NCBI GenBank assembly: GCA_001604585.1 | Contig: LVBW01000065.1 | Coordinates: 1 to 34,275 of the forward strand | DNA from: Puniceicoccales bacterium Verruco_02 | Lineage (GTDB): Bacteria; Verrucomicrobiota; Verrucomicrobiia; Opitutales; Oceanipulchritudinaceae | Direction of reading: 5' to 3' | Length of the DNA stretch: 34,275 bases | In this document: positions 1 to 31,687 of the stretch, piece after piece | Numbering within the stretch: position 1 is the stretch's first letter | Layout of the letters: every line of letters begins with the position of its first letter | Made by a program: the position numbers and the translations under genes | Notes under the pieces: model-generated | What the model was told of the DNA's origin: nothing | Database searches by the model: none | Seen by the model: only the letters and a program-made list of their open reading frames with translations

Positions 1-60
1 CGGAAGGGCCGTGTTTATCTGACTCATGTCCTTGGTTGTCAGGTGTATGCACTTTGTAAA

Positions 61-100
61 GGGGTAGTGGGTATGGGGGGTGGGGTGTACGGACAAGGGG
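61..100 (+). other. Putative G-quadruplex motif upstream of sigma factor gene
   Basis: The + strand carries G-runs of 4, 3, 6 and 4 bases separated by loops of 4, 3 and 1 bases (61-85), with one more GGGG at 97-100. This meets the usual G3+N1-7 pattern for an intramolecular quadruplex. It lies about 155 bases before the sigma factor start, in a 255-base stretch with no convincing gene or tRNA. Function is unknown; the pattern is seen, the folding is inferred. Confidence 0.45.
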
Positions 101-255
101 CAGTCGTCCGGCATGGAGGATGGGGCAAACACTCTCCATGCTACTGTTAGTATGCTCCATGTTCAGAGAAATGCAAGGCCTGACTAACATATCGTGTTGC
201 CTCTTGTTCCCATTACGGGCATGGCTCTTGGTTACTGGAACCACCGGGTGCAAGC

Positions 256-837
256 ATGTCCTTACCCCACATGGAAGCCTCCAACCTTACCTTGCTACTG
301 AACGCCAGGAGCGATAGTCCGGCCTGTTCGTCGGACGAGCTTCTACCTCTTGTTTACGACGAACTTCGACGCATGGCTGCGGAGCGTATGTCGGACGAAT
401 TACGTGAGCGCACTCTCCAGCCGACGGCACTGGTCCACGAAGCTTGGCTCCGCCTTCACCGGGGCAGGCATCAGCAATGGAACGACCGTTTTCATTTCTT
501 TCGTGTAGCAGTGCGGACCATGCGCAGGATACTCGTTGACAGGGCTAGGCAGAGGTCGAGCCTCCGTCACTGCGAGGGAGCGGGGCGGGTGAATATCGCT
601 GATATCGACCTTGCTGCCGCCACGCCGGACGACAGGGTGCTGCTGGTGAACTCGGCTCTGGACGAGCTTCGCAAACTGGACCCAGAGGGGGCAAGGGTGG
701 TGGAGCTGAAGTTTTTCGGCGGCTTTAGCAACAAGGAGGTGGCGTGGATGACGAAGGTGTCCGAACGCACGGTAGAGCGTCAGTGGGCCTATGCAAAGGC
801 CATGGTGTACCAGCTTCTGGAGGAGCTGGATCGCTGA
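256..837 (+). CDS. ECF-family RNA polymerase sigma factor (PF07638 type)
   Basis: A 193-residue sigma factor that should direct RNA polymerase to a specific promoter set. Region sigma-2 spans about residues 26-95 and region sigma-4 about 128-188, where the helix-turn-helix ends in RTVERQW (residues 171-177), typical of this ECF class. The segment that carries acidic residues (DAED) in ordinary ECF factors reads LQPTALVHEAW (54-64), as in members found in Planctomycetes, Verrucomicrobia and Xanthomonads that are often encoded beside Hanks kinases. No anti-sigma gene is adjacent; instead a membrane kinase follows after 48 bases, so control by phosphorylation is plausible. Met1 (256) is used; Met6 (271) is an equally possible start and neither has a Shine-Dalgarno sequence. 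Family assignment is secure; the regulon is unknown. Confidence 0.88.
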   Translation: MSLPHMEASNLTLLLNARSDSPACSSDELLPLVYDELRRMAAERMSDELRERTLQPTALVHEAWLRLHRGRHQQWNDRFHFFRVAVRTMRRILVDRARQRSSLRHCEGAGRVNIADIDLAAATPDDRVLLVNSALDELRKLDPEGARVVELKFFGGFSNKEVAWMTKVSERTVERQWAYAKAMVYQLLEELDR

Positions 838-885
838 GAGTAATTTGAGTCAACCCTGTCGATGGGTTAACTGTGCAGCATAGCC

Positions 886-3087
886 ATGAACAACGGTCCA
901 GACATCCAGCTTGAGAGGCGCCTGCTTGCCGAGGCCCTTGAACTGGAGGACGCCAATGCCCGCAATGCCTACTTGGATCGCATGTGCGCTGGACGGGATA
1001 CTTTGCGCGCGCGTATAGAGCGCTTGCTAGCTGCGACTGCCAGAGCCGACGCCCTGTTCTCCCCGACGGGTTATTCGGCCTCCGGCAGCGCATCCGCATC
1101 TGGAGATCCGGGGGAGTGCCTTACGCAAATTGGTAGATACAAACTCCTTGAGCGCATCGGAGAAGGGGGGCACGGCATGGTGTATCTTGCCGAGCAGCAG
1201 CAGCCGGTGAAGCGTCAGGTGGCGCTGAAGATCATCCGTCTAGGCATGGACACGGCCCGCGTCATAGCCCGCTTCGAGGCCGAGCGCCAGTCCCTAGCCA
1301 TGATGGAGCACCCATATATTGCGCAGGTGTTGGACGCTGGAGCCACCGAGTCCGGCAGACCCTTCTTTGTGATGGAGCTGGTGAGAGGGGAAAAACTCTG
1401 TCAGTTCTGCGACCGCAAACGCCTTGGTGCGCGCGAACGCCTTGAGCTATTCATAAAAGTGTGCCGAGCCATTCAGCACGCTCATCAGAAGGGCATCATT
1501 CACTGCGACATAAAACCGTCCAACATACTTGTAACAGAACTCGACGGCCAGCCCATACCCAAGGTCATCGACTTCGGCATTGCGCGAGCCACCGATTACG
1601 CCCAGCCGGGCAACGATGCCGAAAGGGGCATGTTCATCGGAAGCCCGGACTACATGAGTCCGGAATACGCGCGCGATGGCGGAACCTATGCCGACACCCG
1701 CAGCGACGTATTCAGCCTCGGGGCAGTCCTTTGTGAACTATTGGCCGCTGCTTTGCCATATGAATGCCCGAACTGGGCAAATCTTGAGCCTGAGCAGATA
1801 CGAAGCCTTGTCCAAAGACGTGTGGCAAGTTCACCTTCAGAGGTGTTTCGTTCCCTAGAGCCTGATGCGATGAACCGCGCCTCTTTCTGCCGGAATGTGT
1901 CTGCGCTGGCTCACTCAAGGTTTCTTCAGCGCGACATGGACTGCATAGCGCTCAAGGCTCTGGCTACGGACAGAGACCTGCGCTACGACAGTGCGGCCGC
2001 TCTCGCAGACGACATCCGCCGAAGCCTCGACGGGGCCGTCCCCAGCGCTCATCCATCCGACAGTCTGTACAGGATGCGCAAGTTTGTAACCCGCAACAGG
2101 GTGCCCGTGCTTGCCGCTGCTTTGGCCGTCTGTTCGCTAACAGCGGGCTTGTGCGTTGCGATGCATCTCTACGTTCGCGAGCAGCAGGCATTGAAGGAGC
2201 AGATAGCACTGCGCCACGAGACGGATCTGGCCCGCGCCAACGAGAGCTTGATGCGTCGCAGGGCAGAGGCCGGGGAACTTGTCGCAAGAGCGGCGGTGAA
2301 AATATCCTACGGCAAGGTGGCAGAGGCAGAGGAAATGATGACGGGGCTTTCGCTGGATCTAGTGCAGCCGAGCCTTGAGTCATCGCTTGTTTTTCGCTCG
2401 CTCGGCGAGTGGCACGCCATGGCCGGGCGCTGGGATGAGGCTGCACACTACCTTTCCGCCCTCGCATATTCCATTACCGCAATCGACGAAAATGACACCA
2501 ACGTCGTCTCTGGGCAGGTATTGCCTGCTGCATCGGCCTTGCTGGAATCGGGCGATTTCGATGGCTATGAACGTTTCAGGCGTCACCTTGTGGAGCGTTT
2601 TGGTGGCACCAAGCAGTCTCTTGTTGCAGAGCAGGTCATCAAGTCCTGTCTATTACGACCTGCTCCAGCGCACATTCTCACAGCCCTTGATGCTTCATTC
2701 AGTCTGGTAAGCAAGGAAGAGATGGTCTCTTCGGGCGATTATCACAGTGTGGAGTTATCCGCGTGGCGCGCATTCAGCATTGGGCTGATGGAACATAGAC
2801 GCGGCAATTACAAGGAGGCGCTGGACTGGCTGGAGAAGTGCTCCGCCTCCAAGGATATAAACGAGGCCAGACTCTGCGGGGTGCGTGCAACTATGGCAAT
2901 GGCTGCCGCAAGGCTGGGAAACAGGGCTGAGGCATATGCGTATCTTACCGAGGCCGAAAACCTGCTCCAGCAATTCAGGCTGGAAGCTGGCGGACGTACC
3001 GAATCCAAACTTCGCGGCAACTGGTTCGACTGGGTTAACGACGCAGTCCTCGCCCGTGAGGCATCGCGTATGATGGACGCACGCTGA
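886..3087 (+). CDS. Membrane serine/threonine protein kinase (Hanks type) with C-terminal helical-repeat region
   Basis: A 733-residue kinase. The kinase domain runs from about residue 84 to 375: glycine-rich loop GEGGHG (92-97), ATP-binding Lys115 in VALK, catalytic loop HCDIKPSN (206-213), DFG (229-231) and SPE in place of APE (258-260). The residue before the catalytic Asp208 is Cys rather than the usual Arg, making it a non-RD kinase. One transmembrane helix lies at about 406-429, so residues 430-733, which look like degenerate TPR or helical repeats (AGRWDEAAHY, RRGNYKEALDWLEK), would be on the other side of the membrane from the kinase if the topology is simple. The first 80 residues are helical and lack a signal peptide. 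It follows the ECF sigma gene closely and the two are probably co-transcribed; the sigma factor is the obvious candidate substrate, though nothing in the sequence proves it. Confidence 0.9.
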   Translation: MNNGPDIQLERRLLAEALELEDANARNAYLDRMCAGRDTLRARIERLLAATARADALFSPTGYSASGSASASGDPGECLTQIGRYKLLERIGEGGHGMVYLAEQQQPVKRQVALKIIRLGMDTARVIARFEAERQSLAMMEHPYIAQVLDAGATESGRPFFVMELVRGEKLCQFCDRKRLGARERLELFIKVCRAIQHAHQKGIIHCDIKPSNILVTELDGQPIPKVIDFGIARATDYAQPGNDAERGMFIGSPDYMSPEYARDGGTYADTRSDVFSLGAVLCELLAAALPYECPNWANLEPEQIRSLVQRRVASSPSEVFRSLEPDAMNRASFCRNVSALAHSRFLQRDMDCIALKALATDRDLRYDSAAALADDIRRSLDGAVPSAHPSDSLYRMRKFVTRNRVPVLAAALAVCSLTAGLCVAMHLYVREQQALKEQIALRHETDLARANESLMRRRAEAGELVARAAVKISYGKVAEAEEMMTGLSLDLVQPSLESSLVFRSLGEWHAMAGRWDEAAHYLSALAYSITAIDENDTNVVSGQVLPAASALLESGDFDGYERFRRHLVERFGGTKQSLVAEQVIKSCLLRPAPAHILTALDASFSLVSKEEMVSSGDYHSVELSAWRAFSIGLMEHRRGNYKEALDWLEKCSASKDINEARLCGVRATMAMAAARLGNRAEAYAYLTEAENLLQQFRLEAGGRTESKLRGNWFDWVNDAVLAREASRMMDAR

Positions 3088-3126: not shown

Positions 3127-3216
3127 AGGATTATTCCGCTATTGTGAGGTGGAGAGGCAGTACCCCGCCTTCTCGCAAGACGAAGCATCGTCGTTTCCTA
3201 ACCCCAATATCAGGTA

Positions 3217-4038
3217 ATGATCCAGCGACACTATTTTGCGAAGCTGCTTGCAGCCTGCGCCCTTATATCTGCATCTGCCAGTGTCCTTACTGCGGAGGAG
3301 GTCCCCGCAGCGGCGCCAACGCACATTGCCTTTCCGCCTTGGAACGAAAACGGACGCATCGCACATCAGCAGCTTGTGGAAAAGGCAAGCTCTGGGAAGA
3401 TAGACCTCTATTTCCTTGGAGACTCCATCACGCGCCGCTGGGGAGCGACCGACTACCCCGAATTCCTTTCGCACTGGAACAAGACGTTTTTCGGCTGGAA
3501 CGCAGCTAACTTCGGCTGGGGTGGGGACAGCACCCATCAAATGCTCTGGCGCATCCAGAACGGTGAGTTGGACGGACTTAATCCCAAGGTAATCGTCATT
3601 CTCGCAGGCACAAACAACATCGACAAGGGGCAGCGTCCCGAGCGTGCTGCCGATGCTGCCGAAGGTGTCGCAGCCCTTGTAGCCACCTGCCGCCAGAAAG
3701 TGCCCGGAGCAACAATTGTCCTCAACGCCATTTTTTCACGCAACGACAGCCCGGCGAGCAACGCACTCATTAACGAGGCAAACAGCGCGATTGAGAAGCT
3801 GGCCGACGGCGACAAGGTTCGCTTCCTGAACATAAACGACCAGCTAGCCGATGCGGATGGCAAGCTATTCGAGGGTGTGACGGTGGACCAGTTGCATCTG
3901 TCTTTGAAGGGCTACGAAATTTGGGCGCGAAACCTTGAACCCATCCTCACGGAGCTTCTTGGCCCCCGCGCCGATGTCGATTACGCACCTGCTCCAACTG
4001 GAGATCCATCGGCCACTGCCCCGATTACATACAATTAG
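3217..4038 (+). CDS. Secreted SGNH/GDSL-family esterase, probable carbohydrate acetylesterase
   Basis: A 273-residue serine hydrolase. A signal peptide covers about residues 1-26 (cleavage near VLTA). The SGNH blocks are all present: GDSIT with nucleophile Ser70, the Gly of block II in NFGWGGD (98-104), GTNN with Asn133, and the catalytic Asp224/His227 pair in VDQLH. Overall form resembles the GDSL-like lipase/acylhydrolases related to platelet-activating-factor acetylhydrolase, which in polysaccharide gene clusters usually remove acetyl groups from sugars. Standing first in a run of xylan-degrading genes, acetylxylan esterase is the most sensible role, but the substrate is inferred from context only. 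The tail after residue 250 is Pro/Ala-rich. The start at 3217 has only a weak AGG before it. Confidence 0.85.
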   Translation: MIQRHYFAKLLAACALISASASVLTAEEVPAAAPTHIAFPPWNENGRIAHQQLVEKASSGKIDLYFLGDSITRRWGATDYPEFLSHWNKTFFGWNAANFGWGGDSTHQMLWRIQNGELDGLNPKVIVILAGTNNIDKGQRPERAADAAEGVAALVATCRQKVPGATIVLNAIFSRNDSPASNALINEANSAIEKLADGDKVRFLNINDQLADADGKLFEGVTVDQLHLSLKGYEIWARNLEPILTELLGPRADVDYAPAPTGDPSATAPITYN

Positions 4039-4049
4039 GTCCGTTCGAC

Positions 4050-4087
4050 GGCCGCGTGCGCCTAGCCACTCGGAGGCGCTAGCGGCC
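4050..4087 (+). terminator. Stem-loop between esterase and xylanase genes
   Basis: GGCCGC (4050-4055) pairs with GCGGCC (4082-4087); inside a 2x2 internal loop, GCGCCT (4058-4063) pairs with AGGCGC (4074-4079) around a 10-base loop. The hairpin starts 11 bases after the esterase stop and is followed by AATATTTA rather than a strong T-run. It may act as a weak terminator, an attenuator inside the operon, or an mRNA-end stabiliser; it ends only 26 bases before the next start codon. Confidence 0.45.
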
Positions 4088-4113
4088 AATATTTAACCCC
4101 GATTCATTCATCA

Positions 4114-6756
4114 ATGAGACCATTCTTACCAGTCATCCGCGCGATTATCGCATGCTTGCCCTTAACGACTCAGGCCGCCGAGGTTACCCTCAGGGAAGCA
4201 TACCGGCCATACTTCCATGTGGGCGTGGCGGTTAATCCCGGCAATTACGCTGCCACCAAGCCCGTGGAAGCGGGGCTAGTGAGCAAGCATTTCAATGCCA
4301 TCACTTCAGAAAATCATATGAAGTGGGGCCTTATTCACCCAAGGCCCGACGTATTCGACTTTACCGAGTCCGACCGGATGGTGGACTTTGCCCTCAAGAA
4401 CGACATGTTCATCACAGGGCACACCCTTGTATGGCATTCACAGACACCTCGCTGGGTCTTTGAGGATGAAGATGGCAAACCTCTTACTCGCGACGCACTT
4501 CTTGCCCGTATGCGCGATCATATCTTGACTGTCGTTGGCTACTACAAGGGACGGGTGCAGTCATGGGACGTTGTAAACGAGGCGCTGAACGAGGATGGTA
4601 CATTGCGCGATTCGCCGTGGACGCGCATCATTGGTGATGACTTCATAGAAAAAGCCTTCCAGTACGCCCACGAGGCGGACCCTGATGCAGAGCTGTATTA
4701 CAACGATTATCTTCTGGAAGTGCCGGAAAAGTGCGCAGGTGCCATCCGCATCGTCAAGCGCCTTCAGGCTGCGGGCTGCCGCATTGACGGGGTAGGGATT
4801 CAAGGACACATGCACCTTGAGGGGCCGAGTGTGGAAGCGCAGGAGGCAAGCATTCTCGCCATAGCAGCCACTGGGGTGAAGGCAATGATTACCGAGCTTG
4901 ATGTCGATGTGTTGCCCGGCACGAAGGGCTGGGGCAATGCTGACATTCAGCGTCAGGAAGCGCAGGATCCGGCGTTCAATCCCTATACTGCCGGACTTCC
5001 CGACGAGGTTCAGCAGCAACTGGCCGAACGCTATGCCGAACTGTTCCGCATGTATCTCAAGCACAGCGATGTGATTACCCGAGTAACCATATGGGGCCTT
5101 AATGACGGGAATTCATGGCTGAACGGCTTTCCAATCCGCGGGCGCACAAATCACGCGCTGCTCTTTGATCGCGATAACAAGGCCAAGCCCGCCCTCGCCA
5201 AGCTCTTGGATACGGTGAAGGAATTCGACGCCACTCCGGGACTTAACCCACTATTTCGCGACCGTTTCACTGCCGATCCAGCCCCTCTTGTGGACGGCGA
5301 TAAGGTGTATCTGTACGTCGGGCACGACGAGGCAAAGGACGGCGAGATGTTCACGATGAATGAATGGCTCTGCTACTCCTCGGAGGACATGATTAACTGG
5401 ACTTCGCACGGCTCCATCATGCGCGCCACCGATTTCAAGTGGGCCATTCGCGACGCATGGGCCGCGCAAGTGGTAAAGAAAGACGAGAAGTATTACCTTT
5501 ATGCAACAGTGCGCCACGGGGAGCCGAATGTTGCAATGGCCATAGGCGTTGCAGTGTCCGACAGCCCTACCGGGCCTTTTGTGGATGCTCGCGGCTCCGC
5601 CTTGATTAGCGACGACATGACGCCCGGCCCTTACCCTTGGGATGACATAGACCCGACAGTGTTCATCGACGACGACGGAACGGCGTGGATGGCATGGGGC
5701 AACCCGGTGTGCCACATTGTTCGCCTCAAGCCGAACATGATAGAAATCGACGGCCCCATCGATAACATAGCCTTGCCGAATTACACCGAGGGGCCTTGGC
5801 TCAGCAAGCGCAACGGCATCTATTACCTTACCTACCCAGCCTTTGCCCATCAGGGGTACTGGGAGCGCATCTGCTATGCCACTGCGCCCTCAATTCACGG
5901 CCCCTGGACTTACAGGGGCATTCTGACTGGCAAGGCCGAGAACAGCTACACGATTCATCCCGGCATCGTGAACGACTTCAAGGGTCAGTCATACCTATTC
6001 TATCATAACGCGACACTGACTTTGCCCGATGGACGCAAGGGGGCCTTGGGCCGTCGCGCTGTGCGTGCCGAATACCTGCATTACAACCCAGACGGCACAA
6101 TGCAGCCCGTTGTGCAGACCAAGGCTGGACTCGCCTTGCAGCCCAATCCGGCCCAATTTGCGGCTCATGCGCCCGTGGACCATGGAATGAGCGATCGTCG
6201 CATATCCTTTCGCCCAATACGCAGCTTCCTACCCCGTGTCTGGAGCGGCAGCCCGGTTTGCGCCTCGGTGTCGGATCCCTTTCAGGACGCGCCCATACCC
6301 ATCAGTTTCAACAATGGTGCATCAACCCTTGGGCAAAGCTTTGTCCCTGAGCGGGATATTCGCATGTCGCGCCTGAGCCTGTACGCCGGTGACGGCTTTG
6401 GGACGGATGCCGACAACACCCTGACGCTGGCCTTGTACGAGCTTGAACGAGGTGGCGCTGAGGATACATACAAGGCTGGTAACAATCTCTTCGGTGAAGG
6501 GATGCGCATCGCTTACTCGGTTCAGGCTCCGGGCCAGTTGGACATAGACTTCATCCCGTCCGCGCAGGTTCTGCTCAAAGCCGGGCATCGCTACGTGATA
6601 GAGCTTCAGGGCAGCCCTCGCTCTGCAAGCATGTACTGGCGTCGCAGCAGGCTCGATGTGTATCCGCAGGGCGCGGCCTACGTGGACCGCAAGCTGTTCA
6701 AGGACAAGGAAGGAAGAGGCGCTGATTTCTCCTTCGCCATATATGAATCTCGTTAA
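4114..6756 (+). CDS. Bifunctional GH10 endo-xylanase / GH43 enzyme fusion, secreted
   Basis: An 880-residue secreted enzyme with signal peptide about 1-22. Residues 25-370 form a GH10 domain: ENHMKWG (66-72), HTLVWH (103-108), acid/base Glu156 in WDVVNEAL and nucleophile Glu261 in ITELDVD. GH10 enzymes cut internal beta-1,4-xylosyl bonds. Residues about 378-675 form a GH43 five-bladed propeller with base Asp388 (ADPAP), pKa-setting Asp513 (DIDPTVF) and acid Glu559 (YTEGPW); such domains remove arabinofuranosyl or xylosyl groups. Residues about 685-880 are a further domain, probably a beta-sandwich (GQSFVPERDIRMSRLSLY), which I cannot assign to a known binding module. The fusion lets backbone cleavage and debranching act together. 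It is followed at 32 bases by the GH3 gene. The start has no Shine-Dalgarno sequence. Confidence 0.94.
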   Translation: MRPFLPVIRAIIACLPLTTQAAEVTLREAYRPYFHVGVAVNPGNYAATKPVEAGLVSKHFNAITSENHMKWGLIHPRPDVFDFTESDRMVDFALKNDMFITGHTLVWHSQTPRWVFEDEDGKPLTRDALLARMRDHILTVVGYYKGRVQSWDVVNEALNEDGTLRDSPWTRIIGDDFIEKAFQYAHEADPDAELYYNDYLLEVPEKCAGAIRIVKRLQAAGCRIDGVGIQGHMHLEGPSVEAQEASILAIAATGVKAMITELDVDVLPGTKGWGNADIQRQEAQDPAFNPYTAGLPDEVQQQLAERYAELFRMYLKHSDVITRVTIWGLNDGNSWLNGFPIRGRTNHALLFDRDNKAKPALAKLLDTVKEFDATPGLNPLFRDRFTADPAPLVDGDKVYLYVGHDEAKDGEMFTMNEWLCYSSEDMINWTSHGSIMRATDFKWAIRDAWAAQVVKKDEKYYLYATVRHGEPNVAMAIGVAVSDSPTGPFVDARGSALISDDMTPGPYPWDDIDPTVFIDDDGTAWMAWGNPVCHIVRLKPNMIEIDGPIDNIALPNYTEGPWLSKRNGIYYLTYPAFAHQGYWERICYATAPSIHGPWTYRGILTGKAENSYTIHPGIVNDFKGQSYLFYHNATLTLPDGRKGALGRRAVRAEYLHYNPDGTMQPVVQTKAGLALQPNPAQFAAHAPVDHGMSDRRISFRPIRSFLPRVWSGSPVCASVSDPFQDAPIPISFNNGASTLGQSFVPERDIRMSRLSLYAGDGFGTDADNTLTLALYELERGGAEDTYKAGNNLFGEGMRIAYSVQAPGQLDIDFIPSAQVLLKAGHRYVIELQGSPRSASMYWRRSRLDVYPQGAAYVDRKLFKDKEGRGADFSFAIYESR

Positions 6757-6761
6757 TTAAT

Positions 6762-6788
6762 CCCCCCCCCAATAACACCCCATACCCC
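6762..6788. repeat. C9 tract and C-run cluster abutting the GH3 start codon
   Basis: The 32-base gap holds nine consecutive C (6762-6770), then CCCC at 6778-6781 and CCCC at 6785-6788, the last touching the ATG. The minus strand thus has G-runs able to form a quadruplex (loops of 3 and 7 bases plus the divided G9 run). The homopolymer could also slip in replication. No Shine-Dalgarno sequence is present. Confidence 0.5.
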
Positions 6789-9380
6789 ATGTTTCCCAAA
6801 TTCGTTGCGAGCGCCCTTGCTGGCGCAGTCCTGCTTCCACTGGCAATACTGGCTGCCGAGGCCACGATTCCGCCATATCTTGACAGATCTCTGCCGCAGA
6901 AAGAGCGCGTCGATGACCTGATTTCCAGAATGACCTTGGAAGAGAAGGCCTCGATGATGACCAATACAACCCCCGGAGTGCCCCGGCTGGGCATTCCCAA
7001 ATACAACTGGTGGAGCGAGGCTCTTCACGGGGTGGCCAACGCCGGGACTGCAACCGTATTCCCGCAGGCCATCGGCCTTGCGGCCATGTGGAACGAGCCT
7101 TTCCAGCAGGAGATTGCAACGGTAATCGGCATTGAGGGCAGGGCGAAGTTCAACGGATATGTGGGCACCCCGCTTGAAGGGGAGATATTTCGCGGTCTCA
7201 CTTTCTGGTCGCCAAACGTGAACATCTTTCGAGATCCGCGCTGGGGGCGTGGGCAGGAGACCTATGGCGAGGATCCTTTCCTCACTTCCCGTCTTGGCGT
7301 TGCTTTTGTTCGCGGGCTTCAGGGGGATGACCCCGATTACCTCAAGGCCGCTGCCTGCGCGAAGCATTTTGCAGTGCACAGTGGTCCGGAACCTCTGCGC
7401 CATATTTTCGATGTCGCGCCTGTGAAGGCAGATCTTTACGAGACTTATCTTCCCGCATTCGAGGCACTTGTCCGCGAGGGTAGGGTGGAGATCGTGATGA
7501 CCGCTTACAACGCCATCGACGGCATTCCCTGCTCCATCCATCCACAGCTTTACGGATTCCTTAAGGAATGGGGATTCAGTGGGCATGTGACCTCGGACTG
7601 CGGCTCGGTCAGTGACCTTATCAACACATACAAGATGGCCTCGGACGAGGCCGAGGCGCAGGCCATGACCTTCCTTGCAGGAATGAACGTCCGTTGCGAC
7701 TGGATGAGTGAGGGGGTTCCACAGGCAGTTGAGCGAGGACTGATTAGCGAGGCACAGATTGACAGTAGCTTGCACCCTCTCTTGCGCACGATGTTCAAGC
7801 TCGGCTTCTTCGATCCCAAGGACAAGGTGCCATTCAACAGCATCAACCCCTCTTTGAACGATAGCCCCGAGCATGGTGCCCTCGCCCTGCGTGCTGCGCG
7901 CGAAAGCATGGTACTGCTGAAGAACGACGGTATCCTGCCTCTTGACACCAAGAAGATCCGTCGAGTGGCAGTAGTCGGGCCGAATGCATCATCTCAGCCC
8001 GTTCTCGTAGGCAACTACAATGGAGAGCCTTCCGCTCCGGTCACAGTGCTCGATGGTATCCGTGCAGCTCTTGAACCTCTGGGCATTCGTGTGGATTACT
8101 CCCACGGCTGTGATTATGCGGATCGCAGCGACGATTGGCGGCTCATTCCTCATCCTTGGTTCCGCGGAGAGTATTACAATAACGGCGATTTTTCCGGAAC
8201 CCCGGCAGCATGGCGCACAGAGCGGCCCATTTGCCACGCCTGCTCTACGGGGCATTCCGACGGGCTTCCTTCCGGTGTGTCCCCAAGCGGGGCCTCGGTG
8301 CGCTGGAACGGGGAACTCCAGAGCACGCTGGCTGGTGAATACCGCTTCCGGGTTCGAGGCATTGGCGGTTTCCGCCTGAGGGTGGATGGGAAGCTGCTCG
8401 TTGACTCCATGAGTCCAGTCTATTTGAAGGGCGCGGAGGAGCGGTCCGTCACCGTTTCTTGCAACTTGCCTGACAATGCGATTCTTCCGATACAACTGGA
8501 ATACGTGCAGGGAGCAGCGCCTTTGAGCGTTGCTCTTGAGTGGATTACTCCAGCAGTTGACGCGCAGATGGAAGAGGCCTTGGGCGTGGTTCGCGGTGCG
8601 GACATGGTCATCTACGTCGGCGGCATATCGGCCCAGCTTGAAGGCGAGGAAATGGCGGTTGACTACGAAGGCTTTGTCGGCGGAGACCGCATTTCCACGG
8701 AGTTGCCGGAGCTTCAACAGCGTTTACTCAAGGCCATTCATGCTAGTGGCAAGCCGGTCGTCATGGTGAACATGTCGGGCAGCGCCGTGGCCCTGCCTTG
8801 GGCCGACGCCAACCTGAATGCAGTCCTTCAGGCATGGTATCCCGGACAGGCTGGAGGAACGGCCGTGGCCGACGTAATTACCGGAAAATACAACCCCGCC
8901 GGACGCCTTCCGCTGACATTCTACCGCTCTACGGAAGATCTGCCGGACTTCGACGACTACGCTATGGAGGGCCGCACCTACAAGTATTTCCGCGGCAAGC
9001 CCCTATATGCATTCGGCCACGGCCTTAGCTACACGAGTTTCGATTACTCCGCCATGAAAGTGAGCCGCTCTGCCAGTGGAGACCTGACTGTCAAGCTGAA
9101 GGTCAGGAACTCCGGCAAGCGCGACGGCGACGAAGTGGTGCAACTTTATGCCGTGCCTCCGGCATCGTCAGCAGCTCGCGAAGTGCAGGCCCTTTGCGGG
9201 TTCAAGCGTCTCTTCCTCAAGGCCGGGGAAACAAAGGAGGTCGTAATCACGGTTCCCGCATCCGCCCTTCGTCGTTGGAGCGATAAGAGCGGAAGTATGT
9301 TCATTCCGTCCGGCGAATGGACAATACGCGCCGCTGCTTCATCCGCAGACATTCGCCTGTCCTCAATAATCAAGCTGTAA
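6789..9380 (+). CDS. GH3 beta-xylosidase (xylan 1,4-beta-xylosidase-like) with PA14-like insert, exported
   Basis: An 863-residue exported enzyme (signal about 1-23) that should release xylose from xylo-oligosaccharides. The N-terminal (beta/alpha)8 domain includes NWWSEALHG (73-81), the RDPRWGRGQETYGEDPF block (148-164), substrate-binding KHF (192-194) and nucleophile Asp270 in TSDCG. These motifs match the beta-xylosidase branch of GH3. The alpha/beta sandwich domain follows from about 370 and is interrupted by a PA14-like carbohydrate-binding insert (about 457-590; WFRGEYYNN, YRFRV, GFRLRVDGKLL). The acid/base is expected among the glutamates of LEGEEM (617-622). A fibronectin-III-like domain closes the protein (about 765-863). 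It sits between the GH10-GH43 gene and a second GH43 gene with short gaps (32 and 17 bases), consistent with one operon. Confidence 0.94.
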   Translation: MFPKFVASALAGAVLLPLAILAAEATIPPYLDRSLPQKERVDDLISRMTLEEKASMMTNTTPGVPRLGIPKYNWWSEALHGVANAGTATVFPQAIGLAAMWNEPFQQEIATVIGIEGRAKFNGYVGTPLEGEIFRGLTFWSPNVNIFRDPRWGRGQETYGEDPFLTSRLGVAFVRGLQGDDPDYLKAAACAKHFAVHSGPEPLRHIFDVAPVKADLYETYLPAFEALVREGRVEIVMTAYNAIDGIPCSIHPQLYGFLKEWGFSGHVTSDCGSVSDLINTYKMASDEAEAQAMTFLAGMNVRCDWMSEGVPQAVERGLISEAQIDSSLHPLLRTMFKLGFFDPKDKVPFNSINPSLNDSPEHGALALRAARESMVLLKNDGILPLDTKKIRRVAVVGPNASSQPVLVGNYNGEPSAPVTVLDGIRAALEPLGIRVDYSHGCDYADRSDDWRLIPHPWFRGEYYNNGDFSGTPAAWRTERPICHACSTGHSDGLPSGVSPSGASVRWNGELQSTLAGEYRFRVRGIGGFRLRVDGKLLVDSMSPVYLKGAEERSVTVSCNLPDNAILPIQLEYVQGAAPLSVALEWITPAVDAQMEEALGVVRGADMVIYVGGISAQLEGEEMAVDYEGFVGGDRISTELPELQQRLLKAIHASGKPVVMVNMSGSAVALPWADANLNAVLQAWYPGQAGGTAVADVITGKYNPAGRLPLTFYRSTEDLPDFDDYAMEGRTYKYFRGKPLYAFGHGLSYTSFDYSAMKVSRSASGDLTVKLKVRNSGKRDGDEVVQLYAVPPASSAAREVQALCGFKRLFLKAGETKEVVITVPASALRRWSDKSGSMFIPSGEWTIRAAASSADIRLSSIIKL

Positions 9381-9397
9381 CACAAAGCGCATCCAGT

Positions 9398-10999
9398 ATG
9401 AGAATCAAAACTAGCTATGCCTGCGCACTGCTCGCGATCTTGGCCTCTGTCACAGCGTTTTCGAGTAATCCCTCTTGTTTGATGCCTACCTCCAAGGTGG
9501 ATTGCCTGGGCCTCGGCGCGCATAATCCAATTATCTACGCGGATGTGCCGGACATGGCCATGATTCGCGTTGGCGACACCTACTACATGAGTAGCACCAC
9601 AATGCACATGTCGCCGGGTGTCCCCATCATGAAGTCCAAGGATCTGGTCAACTGGGAAATAGTCAGCTACGCATACGACAGACTCGAAGAGAGCGACGCG
9701 ATGAACCTTTCCAACGGCAAAAGCCGTTATGGCAAGGGTTCATGGGCAAGCAGCATACGTTATAACAAGGGCACTTTTTACGTCAGCACCTTCTGCGGCC
9801 CCTGCGACAAGACCTATGTGTATTCCACTCAGGACATAGAGCGCGGGCCTTGGAAGGAGGCGTCGTTTTCTCCCAGTTTTCACGACCATTCGCTCTTCTT
9901 CGACGACGACGGGCGCGTTTACATGATTTTGGGTGGTGGATCTCTGCGCCTTGTTGAACTTTTGCCCGATGCTTCCGGCGAAATGCCCGGAGGCTTTAAC
10001 CAAGTGGTCATCCCCAACGCCAATGCCCCAGCTGGTGACAACATTGCCCTTAATGCAGAGGGTTCCCAGCTCATCAAGGTCGATGGCAAATACTATCTCT
10101 TCAACATCGTATGGCCGAGGGGTGGTATGAGAACGGTTCTCGTACACCGAGCCGACAAGTTGAGCGGCCCTTGGGAAGGCAGGATTGTCCTTCAGGACAA
10201 GGGCGTCGCTCAGGGCAGCATTATAGATACCCCGGAGGGCAAGTGGTATGCATACCTATTTCGTGACAATGGGGCTGTGGGGCGCATTCCGTATCTAGTG
10301 CCTGTGGAATGGAGGGACGGCTGGCCTGTTCTCGGCGTGAAGGGCGAGGTACCGATGAACTTGCCGGATTTGCCCGGAAACAAGAGCCTCATACCCGGTA
10401 TTGTGAATAGCGACGAGTTTTCCCGCCTGTCTGGCGAAGCTGCGCTACCTCTAGTCTGGCAGTGGAATCACAATCCCGATAACTCGCTCTGGTCCATATC
10501 CGCCCGTAGTGGCTGGCTACGCCTGACCACTGGGCGCATCGACGCCGATGTGCTGACTGCACGCAACACACTCACACAGAGGACATTCGGCCCGCAATGC
10601 AGCGGATATACCTATCTAGATGTATCCGGCATGAAGGATGGCGACTGTGCTGGTCTAATCCTGCTTCAGAGCGACTATGGATATGTCGGCGTCAAGAAAG
10701 AGGGCGCGCGCAGCTATATTGTGATGCAGAGCGTGGACGATGGGCATATAGCCGAAAGGGCAAGGGTTCCCCTTAGGCAGTCCGGCGTGTATCTGAAGGC
10801 GGAGTGTGATTTCCGTCAGCTCGCGGACAGGGCTCGATTCTATTACAGCTTGGACGGCGACAGCTGGACGGCCATAGGGGAGACTCTGCACATGAAATAC
10901 AAGCTTACGCACTTCATGGGCTATCGCTTCGGCCTGTTCAATCATGCGACACGTAGCTTTGGCGGGCACGCTGATTTTGACTTCTTCCGCATCGAATAA
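9398..10999 (+). CDS. GH43 alpha-L-arabinofuranosidase / beta-xylosidase, subfamily-12-like, secreted
   Basis: A 533-residue secreted enzyme starting at ATG 9398, 17 bases after the GH3 stop; this start puts a normal signal peptide (about 1-22, CALLAILASVTA) at the N-terminus, while an upstream ATG at 9317 would overlap GH3 and bury it. The GH43 propeller (about 40-320) has base Asp49 (IIYADVPD), pKa-setting Asp163 (FHDHSLFFDDDG) and acid Glu221 (NAEGSQLI). The block MSPGVPIMKSKDLVNWE (71-87) is typical of the GH43_12-like group. Residues about 335-533 form a beta-sandwich, the concanavalin-like C-terminal domain that helps close the active site in many GH43 enzymes. The role is removal of arabinose or xylose from arabinoxylan fragments; exact specificity cannot be read from the sequence. 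Confidence 0.92.
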   Translation: MRIKTSYACALLAILASVTAFSSNPSCLMPTSKVDCLGLGAHNPIIYADVPDMAMIRVGDTYYMSSTTMHMSPGVPIMKSKDLVNWEIVSYAYDRLEESDAMNLSNGKSRYGKGSWASSIRYNKGTFYVSTFCGPCDKTYVYSTQDIERGPWKEASFSPSFHDHSLFFDDDGRVYMILGGGSLRLVELLPDASGEMPGGFNQVVIPNANAPAGDNIALNAEGSQLIKVDGKYYLFNIVWPRGGMRTVLVHRADKLSGPWEGRIVLQDKGVAQGSIIDTPEGKWYAYLFRDNGAVGRIPYLVPVEWRDGWPVLGVKGEVPMNLPDLPGNKSLIPGIVNSDEFSRLSGEAALPLVWQWNHNPDNSLWSISARSGWLRLTTGRIDADVLTARNTLTQRTFGPQCSGYTYLDVSGMKDGDCAGLILLQSDYGYVGVKKEGARSYIVMQSVDDGHIAERARVPLRQSGVYLKAECDFRQLADRARFYYSLDGDSWTAIGETLHMKYKLTHFMGYRFGLFNHATRSFGGHADFDFFRIE

Positions 11000-11127: not shown

Positions 11128-13560
11128 ATGAAATCCTACAACACCATTGCCAATAGGCGTATCGCTGCGGCGCTATTTACGCTCGCATCCACTTTCACAG
11201 GCCTTGTCGCAAGTCAGGCCTTTGCCGGGCCTCAGTGTTGCAGCGGGCATCACGCAAGTCAGGCAGGCATGTTCCCACTTGGAGCCGTGAGGCTTCTTGA
11301 GCAGGGACCATTTCACCCGGCCGTCAAGGCGAACCGAGAATACCTGCTCGCTCTATCGCCCGACCGCCTGCTTGCGCCCTTCCTTCGCGAGGCAGGCTTG
11401 CAGCCAAAGGCCGACAGTTACGGCAACTGGGAGAGCATCGGCTTGGACGGTCACACCGCAGGGCATTACCTGTCGGCCTTGGCAAACATGATTTCATCGG
11501 GTGCTGACACGGATGATGCTCAACTCCGCTCCCGCTTGGACTACATGCTGAACGAGCTTGAGCGTTGCCAGAAGGCATATGGGGACGGCTACATCGGCGG
11601 AGTGCCCGGAAGCAGGGAGCTGTGGACACGCATCGCCGCTGGAGACGTGGGGGCGGTGTATTCGAGATGGGTTCCCTGGTACAATGTTCACAAGACTTTC
11701 GCCGGCCTGCGCGATGCCTGGCTGGAAACAGGTAGTGAGAAGGCCCGCGACATGCTCCTTGGCCTTGGCGACTGGTGTGTTGAAATATGTTCGCACCTGA
11801 GTGACGCGCAGATGCAGCAGATGCTTGGCAACGAGCACGGAGGCATGAACGAGGTGATGGCCGACATCTACGCCATCAGTGGCGATGCCAAGTATCTGGC
11901 TACAGCCCGTCGCTTCAACCACAAAGCGGTGCTTGACCCGATGATTGAGCAGCGGGACGAGTTGACCGGTCTGCACGCCAATACCCAAATACCCAAGGTG
12001 GTCGGGCTGGAGCGCATTGCCGCCCTAGACGGCGATGGTGCCGCAGACTCAGGCGCACGCTTTTTCTGGGACACAGTGGTGAACAAGCGTTCGATAGCCT
12101 TCGGCGGCAACAGCGTTTCCGAACATTTCAACGACCCCAATGACTTTTACGGACTGCTTATCCACAGGGAAGGGCCGGAGACCTGCAACACCTACAACAT
12201 GTTGCGCCTTACAGAACAGCTCTTTGCTTCAAAGCCTGACGCGACATATGCCGACTATTACGAGCGTGCCTTGTATAATCATATTCTTGCCTCCATAAAC
12301 CCGGTGCACCCCGGTTATGTTTACTTTACATCGCTAAGACCGGGGCACTACCGCGTGTATTCGGAACCGGACAACAGCTTCTGGTGCTGTGTTGGCACGG
12401 GTATGGAGAACCCCGGCAGATACGGTAGCTTCATATACGCCCGTTCCGAGGATGGGGTTTACGTGAACCTTTTTATCGCCTCGGAGCTTGAGGTGAAAGA
12501 ACTTGGCCTGACCCTGCGACAGGATACGGCGTTTCCGGACGAAGGTTCCAGTCGCCTTACCTTGAAGCTGGACAAGCCTGAACACTTTGCCCTGCACCTG
12601 CGCTATCCGGGATGGGTGGGGAAGGGGGAATTCTCAGTTTCCGTCAACGGCGAGTGTGTCTCCGTCTGTGGATCGCCATCATCTTTCGTGAAGATCGAGC
12701 GTACATGGAGGGATGGAGACAAGGTGGAGCTAATCATGCCCATGAAGACCCGCGTGGAGGCCCTGCCTGACAATTCGCCTTGGTATGCCATAATGCACGG
12801 CCCCATTCTCCTCGCCGCACCATCGGGCACTTGGGATATGATCGGTCTGCGTGCCGACGATTCCCGCATGGCCCATGTGGCAAACGGACCGTCCCTGCCC
12901 TTGGACAAGGCCCCGGTCCTTCTTTGCGATGCCGGAACGATTGCCAGCAATGTAGTGCCGGACATGGCCGCCGGGCCGTTGCATTTTCGCCTGATGAACA
13001 TCGTCGAGCCTTCTGTGATGGATGGAGTGCCTCTTGTCCCCTTCTTCCGTCTTCAGGAATCGCGCTACCAGATGTACTGGGAAACTAGCACCCCTGAGAA
13101 GATCGCAGCCAACAGGCAGAGGCTGGCCGAGGAAGAGCAGGCACTAGCTGTGCGCGAAGCGGCCACCATCGACCGGGTGAGCGCAGGAGAGCAGCAGCCG
13201 GAGGTGGAGCACGACTATCTAGGCGAGGACACCGAGAGCGGCATTCACAACGGCAGGCGCTGGCGTCATGGCCGTGTTATCGAGTACACCCTCAATTCCC
13301 GCGGGGAAAAGGCCGTAATCCTGTCCGTCACATATTCTGGCGACGACAACGGGCGAGTGTTCGACATCTTTGCCAACGGCACGCTAGTCGCCACACAGGA
13401 ACTGACGGCGGAAAGGCGCGGCCATTTCATCGAGAAGTCCTACATCATCCCCGCATCAGTGCTGGAAGCTGCCAAGGACGGACGAATCCGCATACGCTTC
13501 GAGGCGCGAAAGGTTCTTGCGGGTGGCTTGTATGAAGTGCGCCTACTGCGCGCCAAATAG
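11128..13560 (+). CDS. GH127 beta-L-arabinofuranosidase-like enzyme (DUF1680), exported
   Basis: An 810-residue exported protein; the signal peptide ends near residue 33 (ASQAFAG). It matches GH127: GHYLSALA (112-119), WVPWYNVHK (181-189) and FGGNSVSEHF (325-334). The zinc/nucleophile set known from the Bifidobacterium enzyme HypBA1 (Glu338, Cys340, Cys417, Cys418) is present as Glu351, Cys353, Cys420 and Cys421, and Glu332 fits the acid/base position. The protein should therefore be active, using a zinc-bound cysteine as nucleophile to cut terminal arabinofuranosides. The C-terminal 110 residues form the extra domain common in long GH127 proteins. A 128-base gap with a palindrome separates it from the upstream GH43 gene, so it may have its own promoter. 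The final gene of the cluster, it ends before a strong stem-loop. Confidence 0.93.
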   Translation: MKSYNTIANRRIAAALFTLASTFTGLVASQAFAGPQCCSGHHASQAGMFPLGAVRLLEQGPFHPAVKANREYLLALSPDRLLAPFLREAGLQPKADSYGNWESIGLDGHTAGHYLSALANMISSGADTDDAQLRSRLDYMLNELERCQKAYGDGYIGGVPGSRELWTRIAAGDVGAVYSRWVPWYNVHKTFAGLRDAWLETGSEKARDMLLGLGDWCVEICSHLSDAQMQQMLGNEHGGMNEVMADIYAISGDAKYLATARRFNHKAVLDPMIEQRDELTGLHANTQIPKVVGLERIAALDGDGAADSGARFFWDTVVNKRSIAFGGNSVSEHFNDPNDFYGLLIHREGPETCNTYNMLRLTEQLFASKPDATYADYYERALYNHILASINPVHPGYVYFTSLRPGHYRVYSEPDNSFWCCVGTGMENPGRYGSFIYARSEDGVYVNLFIASELEVKELGLTLRQDTAFPDEGSSRLTLKLDKPEHFALHLRYPGWVGKGEFSVSVNGECVSVCGSPSSFVKIERTWRDGDKVELIMPMKTRVEALPDNSPWYAIMHGPILLAAPSGTWDMIGLRADDSRMAHVANGPSLPLDKAPVLLCDAGTIASNVVPDMAAGPLHFRLMNIVEPSVMDGVPLVPFFRLQESRYQMYWETSTPEKIAANRQRLAEEEQALAVREAATIDRVSAGEQQPEVEHDYLGEDTESGIHNGRRWRHGRVIEYTLNSRGEKAVILSVTYSGDDNGRVFDIFANGTLVATQELTAERRGHFIEKSYIIPASVLEAAKDGRIRIRFEARKVLAGGLYEVRLLRAK

Positions 13561-13637: not shown

Positions 13638-16600
13638 TTAGCGTTTGTTGTTGGCCATGAAGTAGAGCACCGGCACGGCCATGCGGCTTATAAGTAGCGA
13701 GGCTATCTCGCCGAACATCAGGCTGATGGCCAACCCCTGGAAAATGGGGTCCGCCAGTATGACGCTAGCACCGACCACAACAGCCAGTGCCGTCAGCAGC
13801 ATTGGGCGGAAGCGCACTGCTCCGGCCTCCACGACGGCTTCACGCAGCGATAGGCCGTGTTCGCGGCGCAACTCTATAAAGTCCACGAGGATAATCGAGT
13901 TACGCACCACGATGCCAGCCCCGGCCATGAAGCCGATCATGGATGTGGCGGTAAAGAATGCGCCCATTGCCCAGTGGGCAGGCAAAATGCCGATTAGCGA
14001 GAACGGGATTGCGGCCATGACAACGAGTGGTGTCACGTAGCTCTTGAACCAGCCCACCATCAGCATGGCGATAAGCACGAGCACGACCGCAAAGGCCAGC
14101 CCGAGATCGCGGAATACTTCCAGCGTGATATGCCATTCGCCATCCCAGAGCACTGTCGGAGAGGCGTCGTCCACGGGCTGCTTGAAGAAGTTGATTGATA
14201 CCTTGCCATTCGCTCCGCCGTAGCTGGCTCCTTCGAGTTTGGCCAAAGCCTTGTTCATCGTGAATATGGCGTATGCCGGGCTTTCCACCTCTCCGGCGAC
14301 ATCGGCAGTTACATATGTCACGGGTTGCAGGTTCTTGTGATATATGCTTCGTTCGCGCTGCGTGTGTTCGACTCGCACAAGCTCCATCAAGGGAATGAGC
14401 GGAGCTTGTGGATTATGGCCGCGAATTCGCAGCTTGAGCAGCGCGTTGGGGGTGGGGCGTGAACTGTCGGGCAGTTCCACAATTATCGGTACCCCTTCGC
14501 GGTCCACAGGCTGGTGGAGCAGGTCGGCCTGAACGCCCAGTGTTGCAAGGCGTATGGCCTCGTTTATCTGCGCCTCGCTTATCCCGGCAAGAGCCGCTTT
14601 GTCCTTGTCCGCCACGTAGCGGACCATTGGCTGCGCGTCTTCCACATACCAGTCGATGTCAACTACGCCGGGTGTATTCTCCATTATCCTTTTAACATCG
14701 GCTGCTAGCGCGTGGCGTGCCTTTTCCGAGGGGCCGTACACTTCTGCAACTATGGTTTGGAGGACAGGTGGACCGGGCGGCACTTCGGCAACGGCGAGCG
14801 CAGCGCCGTACCGTTTGGCGATCTCGGTCATCATAGGGCGCACCTTCAGAGCTATGTCGTGACTCTGAAGCTTGCGCTGCGATGCATCTACGAGGTTAAC
14901 CTGTATGTCGGCCACGTTCGGGCCGCGACGCAGGTAGTAGTGGCGTACTAAACCGTTGAAATTGAATGGAGATGCTGTGCCGGAATAGATTTGGCAGTCG
15001 CGCACTTCTGGAACGGACCTGAGCACGGCGGCCATTTCAAAGGCTACACGGGTGGTGTCTTCGAGGGTGGTGCCTTCGGGTGTGTCGATGACAATCTGGA
15101 ACTCGCTCTTGTTGTCGAAGGGCAGCATTTTGACCTTCACAGCACCCACGCCGACTAGAGCCATCGCAGCAAATAACAGCGCAACTATCACACCAAGAAA
15201 GGCCCAGCGCCAAGCGGTATGGTCGAGCAGGGGATCCATCACCTTGTGATACAGGCGCGATGACCAGTCCGAGGGGGCTTCGTCTTCAAAGGTGGAGGCA
15301 GCTCTCTCTGCTTCAGGCAGTTTAAGTTCGCAGCTAAAGCGGCGCTTCAGGACGCGAATCGCAGCCCAGGGCGTGATGGTGAAAGCTATCACAAGAGAGA
15401 ACAGCATGGCCGCCGTGGAACCGATGGGGATGGGACGCATGTATGGCCCCATCAGGCCACCGACAAAGGCCATTGGCAGAATTGCCGCAATGACGGCCCA
15501 AGTCGCGAGGATTGTTGGGTTCCCAACTTCGTCAACGGCTTCAAGGGCGACTTGCGCGAGGCCTTTCTTCTGCGCCCCGGCCATGCGTACGTGCCTTACG
15601 ATGTTCTCCACAACCACGATGGCATCGTCCACAAGTATGCCTATTGAAAATATCAGGGCAAAGAGCGTGATGCGGTTTAGCGTGTATCCGTAGAGGTAAA
15701 ACACGAGCAGCGTGAGGGCCAGTGTCGATGGAACGGCGAGCAACACGACCAAGGACTCCCTCCAGCCGAGGAAAAACAGTATAAGGAGTGCGACGCCAAA
15801 GACCGCGATTCCCATGTGCAACAGAAGCTCGTTCGACTTGTGTGCAGCCGTGCTTCCGTAGTCACGAACCGTCGTGACGCTCACTTCATCAGGTATCACA
15901 ATCCCTTTTAGTGAATCCACACGGGCTAGCACGGCGTCAACCACTTCGATAGCGTTTGCGCCGGGGCGCTTGGCAAGGCTGAGCGTAACGGCAGCCTCCA
16001 GTGCCCCGTCGCGCCCCATGTGCATCACGTAGTCAGCTGGAGTGGCAGCCTCATCTCGGACTTCCGCCACATCTCTTAGGTACACGGGCCTGCCTTCGTA
16101 AACGCCTACGACTACGGTACCTACATCGCGTGCGTTCTCAAGGAAACTGCCAGTCTGGAGCAGCACGTCTTTCCCGTCAAAGGGCAGAGAACCAAGCTCC
16201 ATTCTCGAGTTTGTCTGGCGCAGGATCGGCACCACTACATCCGCGCTTATGCCGTGAGCGGCCAGCGAAGAGCTGTCCAGCACCACGCGGACTGCGCGCT
16301 TGTCGCCACCAATTAGCTTGGTTTCGGCAACCTTGTCGATGGGCTTGACTGCCTCTTCAACCTGAGCGGCCACGCGGCGCAGGTCCAGATGGTCCAAGCT
16401 GGCACTATGAAAGGTCAGCGCGAGGATCGGCACGTCGTCAATCGTGCGCGGCTTGATCAGCGGGGCACTTACGCCGTAGGGAATGCGGTCGTAGTTGGAC
16501 TGTAGTTTCTGATTGAGCCTTACGATAGCCGCCTCGATGTCGGTGCCGACCTTGAAGCGGACTACGACCAAGGTTCCGCCCGGAGACGAGGTCGAGTAGA

Positions 16601-16874
16601 GGTATTCAACGTCTGGAATTTCCCACAGGAGTTTTTCCATAGGGCGGGTGACGTGATTTTCCACCTCCTGCGGACTTGCACCCGGCATGGAGACGAAGAT
16701 GTCTATCATCGGCACCTTAATCTGCGGCTCTTCTTCGCGCGGCAGGTTGATTACCGCGAAAAGGCCGAGGAGGATTGATGCGATTATGGCAATGGGCGTC
16801 AGTTTTGAGCTGATGAAGGCTTGAGCCATGCGGCCAGCCGTGCCCATTTTTGTGTCTTTGCACTGGGCATCCAT
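13638..16874 (-). CDS. RND-family efflux pump, inner-membrane permease subunit
   Basis: A 1078-residue proton-driven exporter of the AcrB/HAE1 kind. The first helix (about 24-42) is followed by LPREEEPQI and a large periplasmic domain; helices 2-6 begin near 350, and the proton-relay acidic pair is Asp416/Asp417 in the fourth helix (GILVDDAIVVVEN). A second periplasmic domain (about 580-880) and a second set of helices repeat the plan. The sequence resembles a branch found with ArsR regulators and DUF2892 proteins rather than the classical multidrug AcrB; its substrate is unknown. The ATG directly abuts the TAG of the adaptor gene and has a good GGAGG ribosome-binding site 8 bases ahead, supporting Met1 over Met10 and indicating translational coupling. 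Confidence 0.94.
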   Translation of the reverse strand: MDAQCKDTKMGTAGRMAQAFISSKLTPIAIIASILLGLFAVINLPREEEPQIKVPMIDIFVSMPGASPQEVENHVTRPMEKLLWEIPDVEYLYSTSSPGGTLVVVRFKVGTDIEAAIVRLNQKLQSNYDRIPYGVSAPLIKPRTIDDVPILALTFHSASLDHLDLRRVAAQVEEAVKPIDKVAETKLIGGDKRAVRVVLDSSSLAAHGISADVVVPILRQTNSRMELGSLPFDGKDVLLQTGSFLENARDVGTVVVGVYEGRPVYLRDVAEVRDEAATPADYVMHMGRDGALEAAVTLSLAKRPGANAIEVVDAVLARVDSLKGIVIPDEVSVTTVRDYGSTAAHKSNELLLHMGIAVFGVALLILFFLGWRESLVVLLAVPSTLALTLLVFYLYGYTLNRITLFALIFSIGILVDDAIVVVENIVRHVRMAGAQKKGLAQVALEAVDEVGNPTILATWAVIAAILPMAFVGGLMGPYMRPIPIGSTAAMLFSLVIAFTITPWAAIRVLKRRFSCELKLPEAERAASTFEDEAPSDWSSRLYHKVMDPLLDHTAWRWAFLGVIVALLFAAMALVGVGAVKVKMLPFDNKSEFQIVIDTPEGTTLEDTTRVAFEMAAVLRSVPEVRDCQIYSGTASPFNFNGLVRHYYLRRGPNVADIQVNLVDASQRKLQSHDIALKVRPMMTEIAKRYGAALAVAEVPPGPPVLQTIVAEVYGPSEKARHALAADVKRIMENTPGVVDIDWYVEDAQPMVRYVADKDKAALAGISEAQINEAIRLATLGVQADLLHQPVDREGVPIIVELPDSSRPTPNALLKLRIRGHNPQAPLIPLMELVRVEHTQRERSIYHKNLQPVTYVTADVAGEVESPAYAIFTMNKALAKLEGASYGGANGKVSINFFKQPVDDASPTVLWDGEWHITLEVFRDLGLAFAVVLVLIAMLMVGWFKSYVTPLVVMAAIPFSLIGILPAHWAMGAFFTATSMIGFMAGAGIVVRNSIILVDFIELRREHGLSLREAVVEAGAVRFRPMLLTALAVVVGASVILADPIFQGLAISLMFGEIASLLISRMAVPVLYFMANNKR

Positions 16875-17897: not shown

Positions 17898-17932
17898 GGT
17901 AGGTAAATATATGATGCTTATTGAATTAAAGA

Positions 17933-19243: not shown

Positions 19244-19258
19244 TGTAATAACCAATCG

Positions 19259-25688: not shown

Positions 25689-25813
25689 TCAGGCAATGAT
25701 GCCTCATGGTATGCCCTTTGGTCAAGGTTGGCAGCCCCCTCCGCTTGATAGCGTGTACAGCAAGAGGCGAGCCTTGCGATTGACTGGGAAATGTGTACCA
25801 ACTTCAACGAAAA

Positions 25814-31609: not shown

Positions 31610-31687
31610 TGCGGTCCTTTTATCCGTGCATCCTGCCCTTTGGCGGATGACTGTACTGTGGCTGTTTGGATACGAGGTTTTGTCGAA

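Follow-up and report, generated by a model that had tools for sequence, protein, structure and literature searches.

A sigma factor paired with a membrane Ser/Thr kinase as a probable phospho-switch of glycan-use genes in Verrucomicrobiota

Introduction

Can a sigma factor whose neighbour is a protein kinase, instead of an anti-sigma factor, govern the hemicellulose genes that lie beside it? Two-component hybrids, sigma/anti-sigma pairs and repressors are known as switches of bacterial polysaccharide loci. The question is raised by a stretch of 34,275 nucleotides from Puniceicoccales bacterium Verruco_02 (the window). This stretch makes up an entire contig; the genome, of 2.7 Mb, comes from the order that holds Pelagicoccus. 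An earlier note, made from the letters of this DNA, had proposed that an ECF sigma factor is activated by the kinase encoded next to it and turns on the adjacent arabinoxylan genes. Here, we examine the two proteins, their relatives and the DNA that follows their genes.

Results

The sigma gene (Table 1) encodes 193 amino acids that match PF07638 (Sigma70_ECF, 2.1e-47) and TIGR02999 (176.9 bits, with a cut-off of 126), and its AlphaFold model (pLDDT 79) matches ECF sigma structures. Where ordinary ECF factors have DAED, this protein has QPTA, as the earlier note had observed; in related genomes, ordinary ECFs have DAND or DAAD at these columns. In a weak phmmer match (E 0.04), QPTA was aligned to QAED of M. 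tuberculosis SigL, which places Thr57 (codon 424-426) opposite a glutamate. The idea that QPTA and Thr57 are peculiar to this locus had to be rejected, since the feature is family-wide: Thr57 is kept in 73 of 73 aligned relatives, nearly all of which lack an acidic residue in the motif, and one gammaproteobacterial sigma-kinase pair reads QTTE there.

The replacement of the acidic motif of region 2.2 by an uncharged Q/S-x-T-x with conserved threonine is the pattern of ECF43. The proposal that Thr57 stands at the phosphorylated column of that group is supported by two of its members. EcfP of Vibrio, which is activated by PknT, reads STTA (PMC8999054), and EcfK of Xanthomonas citri, which PknS phosphorylates at Thr51 and at linker sites, reads QATE (PMC13147305). 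The T51A form of EcfK still works in X. citri (PMC13147305), so the threonine need not be the sole switch.

Table 1. Features of the window that bear on the sigma-kinase pair and the hemicellulose genes around it.
Feature	Position	Strand	Basis
Start region of LacI gene, continuing on contig C58, then MFS_2 and GH8-GH43-GH43_C2 fusion	1..253	-	contig overlap
ECF sigma factor, PF07638/TIGR02999, without anti-sigma partner	256..837	+	Pfam/TIGR matches; AlphaFold model against ECF structures
QPTA motif (residues 55-58), region 2.2, in the place of acidic DAED	418..429	+	alignments
Membrane Ser/Thr kinase: N-terminal cytoplasmic kinase domain, one TM helix, C-terminal alpha-helical TPR-like domain	886..3087	+	
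HCD catalytic loop (non-RD), residues 206-208	1501..1509	+	sequence
Predicted transmembrane segment, about residues 408-429	2107..2172	+	hydropathy peak; long helix 405-474 in model
C-terminal helical repeat domain, about residues 475-733, presumed periplasmic sensor	2308..3084	+	AlphaFold model; weak TPR matches
Promoter-like site TGTCGG-N17-CGCTA, 29 bp after start of kinase stop codon	3114..3141	+	pattern match
GDSL esterase (PF13472), first gene after promoter-like site	3217..4038	+	Pfam
GH10 xylanase-GH43 fusion	4114..6756	+	Pfam
GH3, Xyl3A-like beta-xylosidase	6789..9380	+	Pfam/TIGR-type searches
GH43 with GH43_C2 domain	9317..10999	+	Pfam
GH127 beta-L-arabinofuranosidase	11128..13560	+	Pfam

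The kinase gene follows after a gap of 48 bp, which fits a single operon. Its product of 733 amino acids matches Pkinase at residues 85-307 (9.8e-39) and has a complete catalytic set (G-loop, Lys115, Glu133, Asp208, Asn213 and the DFG motif), together with a single hydrophobic segment at about residues 408-426. At this locus, no anti-sigma gene was found among the annotated neighbours on either side, which confirms the proposed arrangement of a Hanks kinase without an anti-sigma partner, be it FecR-like or RsgI-like as in the ECF sigma/anti-sigma regulators of polysaccharide use. The best match in the PDB, both by sequence (39% identity) and by fold (Foldseek 2e-19), is PknS (9eed). An AlphaFold model (pLDDT 88) shows a helical-repeat C-terminal domain; the Foldseek-type search gave only kinase domains among the matches listed and none for this part of the protein. 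Taken together, PknS as the nearest structure, the family-wide Thr57 and the EcfP and EcfK motifs speak for a pair of a known kind, which in its anatomy thus appears to be ECF43-like.

The pairing is conserved. In the loci fetched around close relatives, a kinase gene adjoins every sigma homologue, so the arrangement is not due to chance, and the same adjacency is found in Verrucomicrobiota, Planctomycetota and Proteobacteria. Less can be made of the non-RD loop to which the earlier note had drawn attention: HCD is indeed present, but its residue varies among 50 short kinases (HRD in 30, HGD in 17, HCD in 3) and has changed more than once. HGD is frequent in a clade of relatives with arabinan genes, described below, and the HCD of the window kinase is a separate change. 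A non-RD loop also fails as a mark of that clade, since L069, L072 and L153 have HRD and the same target genes.

On the far side of the sigma gene, the first 77 nucleotides of the window are identical to the end of another contig of the same genome (G000:C58:27852-27928) and occur nowhere else in it. This unique overlap identifies the upstream neighbours of the sigma gene as LacI, MFS_2 and GH8-GH43, all divergent from it, and xylan genes consequently flank the pair on both sides. The genes from 3217 to 10999 are densely packed and could form a single transcript. AACCCC-type leaders lie directly 5' of start codons at 3195-3219 (CTAACCCCAATATCAGGTAATG), 4090-4116 (TTTAACCCCGATTCATTCATCAATG) and 6757-6791 (CCCCATACCCCATG); a Shine-Dalgarno sequence is not obvious at them, and such leaders are also present in many related loci, including those of the arabinan clade. 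Further along, the window holds an RND efflux trio (ACR_tran, HlyD, OEP) on the minus strand at 13638-19255, an alpha-galactosidase-like gene (25793-27613) and an arginine decarboxylase gene (31640-33613), the latter two from families that also lie near the relatives L161 and L162. A close homologue of the GH127 gene of the window (1110 bits) is found in L157 (G239:C74), beside a sigma-kinase pair with QPTM and HRD.

Among the relatives, about 22 pairs from Opitutales and near kin form a supported clade, in most members of which the operon is followed by genes for an MFS_2 sugar symporter, two types of GH43, GH51 and/or TonB receptors. One of these GH43 enzymes resembles exo-arabinofuranosidases (3akf is among its relatives) and another endo-arabinanases (1gyd). 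Genes found beside other short-kinase pairs include those for GH127, GH51, AbfB, alpha-galactosidase and large secreted proteins; such families are absent among the 25 listed for the neighbours of long-kinase pairs, which served as control. The window pair lies outside the arabinan clade; on a long branch it joins L076, L085 and L080, with SH-aLRT support of 91-96 for the kinase and 80-82 for the sigma factor. Both trees thereby refute an orthology with the clade that a score of 1033 bits had suggested, the profile in question (A3) having contained the window itself.

In the DNA 3' of the kinase stop codons of the relatives we noticed a bipartite signal, TG[T/G]CGG-N17-CGCAT. It occurs within 400 bp 3' of the kinase in 19 of 21 clade loci, against a mean of 0.04 and a maximum of 1 in dinucleotide shuffles. 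A spacer of exactly 17 was found in 21 of 26 clade loci, in 7 of 47 other short-kinase loci (the window among them) and in none of 65 long-kinase loci. As the pattern was derived from part of the same loci, the controls and a search of whole genomes weigh more than the first count. In that search the strict form, TGKCGGGTTY-N12-GCGCAT, was present in 14 of 18 genomes with the pair and in none of 18 without it (Fisher 1.6e-6, a value that overstates independence because the genomes are related). The loose form TGKCGG-N17-CGCAT had to be abandoned as a specific genome-wide marker, since even with RNT added it still matched 19 times in genomes that lack the pair, against 50 times in those that have it. 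The weight is only on the strict form and on position, not on the loose pattern.

Copies of the signal remote from the pair lie 19 to 123 bp 5' of arabinan-type TonB receptors (L181, L188, L189) and of GH43 enzymes (L183, L185, L186, L189, and L190 by a looser form); in L182 the remote copy is close to where the longest frame of an arabinan-type TonB receptor begins. Two strict remote sites, L184 and L187, do not fit an arabinan regulon, the genes concerned being that of a 237-aa protein without Pfam match and a next same-strand gene 1.6 kb away. A single cluster of G002, from the window's own genus, carries four copies, which precede two GH43 genes, a TonB receptor gene and MFS_2. L152 and L154 also have a copy upstream of the sigma gene itself (positions 8291 and 7761, respectively, on that gene's strand), which hints at self-activation there.

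In the window, the signal was looked for before 3217, 4114, 6789 and 11128 and found only before 3217. Of the three places (3217, 4114 and 11128) upstream of which the earlier note had proposed to look for a shared promoter motif, only the first therefore has one, and a signal for each xylan gene was not found. The proposal that the sigma factor turns on the adjacent arabinoxylan genes is likewise supported in part: the promoter-like signal that separates the kinase gene from the GDSL esterase gene preserves the link to hemicellulose, but the best-supported regulon is one of arabinan, not xylan, and lies in the sister clade.

Does the site before 3217 serve the pair? An alternative, which we regard as unlikely but worth serious attention, is that the pair is a kinase-activated switch with another target, that the xylan genes are under the adjacent LacI repressor, and that TGTCGG-N17-CGCTA has arisen by chance. 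LacI, together with MFS_2 and GH8-GH43, is indeed directly beside the sigma gene and divergent from it, the window lineage is separate from the arabinan clade, and the site is weak by the matrix of that clade, with a score of 4.6 against 13-43 for clade sites. Nor is the variant pattern specific as such: the 16 copies in the window's genome, few of them intergenic, compare with 8 for a reversed control, so most are due to chance. Against this, the site ranks first of 7635 intergenic positions by the same matrix, and the relaxed pattern has a single exact match in 34 kb, just 3' of the kinase stop codon, at the place that the signal has in the clade. Close kin have a corresponding sequence there (TGGCGG-N17-CGTTT in L076, TGGCGG-N17-CGCTT in L162). 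A second intergenic variant in the same genome, TGGCGG-N17-CGCTT (G000:C28:7984-8011; L197, L209), is located 97 bp 5' of a GH95 gene that adjoins a gene for glucuronyl esterase, which takes part in breaking down xylan. Judged by its sequence and place, the site of the window is probably a promoter in use (about two chances in three), and LacI, as a second candidate regulator, may add further control.

Discussion

Together, our data suggest a model in which the kinase activates its partner sigma factor, as in ECF43, and so drives glycan-use regulons, with a variant of the promoter before the xylan operon of the window; we give this reading a probability of roughly 0.65. By analogy with ECF43, we infer that the sigma factor, having no acidic region-2.2 motif, is presumably unable to bind RNA polymerase until it is phosphorylated. 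The C-terminal helical domain of the membrane kinase would sense a glycan that contains arabinose, or the products of its degradation, and the activated kinase would phosphorylate Thr57, upon which the sigma factor could bind RNA polymerase. For the last step the pattern of sites is the guide: the active sigma factor would read TG[T/G]CGG-N17-CG[C/T][A/T]T promoters before glycan-use genes, and in the window TGTCGG-N17-CGCTA, before the xylan operon at 3217.

It is improbable that the bipartite signal belongs instead to some other factor that accompanies the cluster, be it as a regulator's operator or as a second sigma factor's promoter. Between the genomes that have the pair and those that lack it there are presumably further differences in gene content, which leaves room for such a companion, but the strict form comes and goes with the pair and the signal is absent after the 65 long-kinase pairs. 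The signal also has no dyad symmetry, has a fixed 17-bp spacer and lies mostly 20-120 bp before start codons, like -35/-10 boxes. Equally little speaks for a kinase that acts on other proteins and a sigma factor governed only by its own level, with Thr57 serving only the structure of PF07638 proteins. Structure alone could explain the invariance of Thr57, but the two genes are tightly paired across phyla, and phosphorylation at this column has been demonstrated in EcfP (PMC8999054) and EcfK (PMC13147305).

The preferred reading, a kinase-activated switch, has precedents on the side of the proteins. Like EcfP/PknT of Vibrio parahaemolyticus, the pair combines a sigma factor without DAED and with threonine at the third motif position with an adjacent Ser/Thr kinase and no anti-sigma factor; however, EcfP answers polymyxin, whereas the window and its relatives are linked to hemicellulose or arabinan genes. 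With EcfK/PknS it shares the membrane kinase, of which PknS is the nearest solved kinase domain, and a threonine (Thr51) at the same column, but PknS has HRD instead of HCD, and the target in X. citri is a type VI secretion system. On the side of the genes, the resemblance is to the sigma/anti-sigma and hybrid two-component regulators of Bacteroides and Clostridium thermocellum, which also place a membrane sensor beside glycan-use genes and TonB receptors; unlike these, the pair has neither anti-sigma factor nor histidine kinase, and a Ser/Thr kinase takes the place of the sensor.

The phospho-switch itself is thus already known, and what is new is its probable target, a regulon for arabinan or xylan with a promoter of its own. 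In the open-licence papers searched, we found no kinase-sigma pair on polysaccharide genes and no such switch tied to an arabinan or xylan regulon through a defined promoter, and the word threonine is absent from a 2024 review of hemicellulase regulation (PMC10766802). More tentatively, and at slightly less than even odds, kinase-activated sigma factors could be general regulators of glycan loci in Verrucomicrobiota. Each short-kinase pair would then lie next to polysaccharide genes of its own (arabinan, xylan, GH127, GH51 or alpha-galactosidase), read a variant of TGKCGG-N17-CGYWT and fill the role that in Bacteroidetes falls to hybrid two-component and sigma/anti-sigma systems.

If the model is true, plant-fibre digestion would have one more kind of switch, in which a sigma factor serves a hemicellulose regulon only when licensed by a Ser/Thr kinase. 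The design is open to direct test, since its promoter sequence can be read and one of its carriers, Pelagicoccus mobilis, is in culture. Many kinase-sigma pairs of Verrucomicrobiota and Planctomycetota are orphans, and for one family of them the model would supply a role tied to a substrate.
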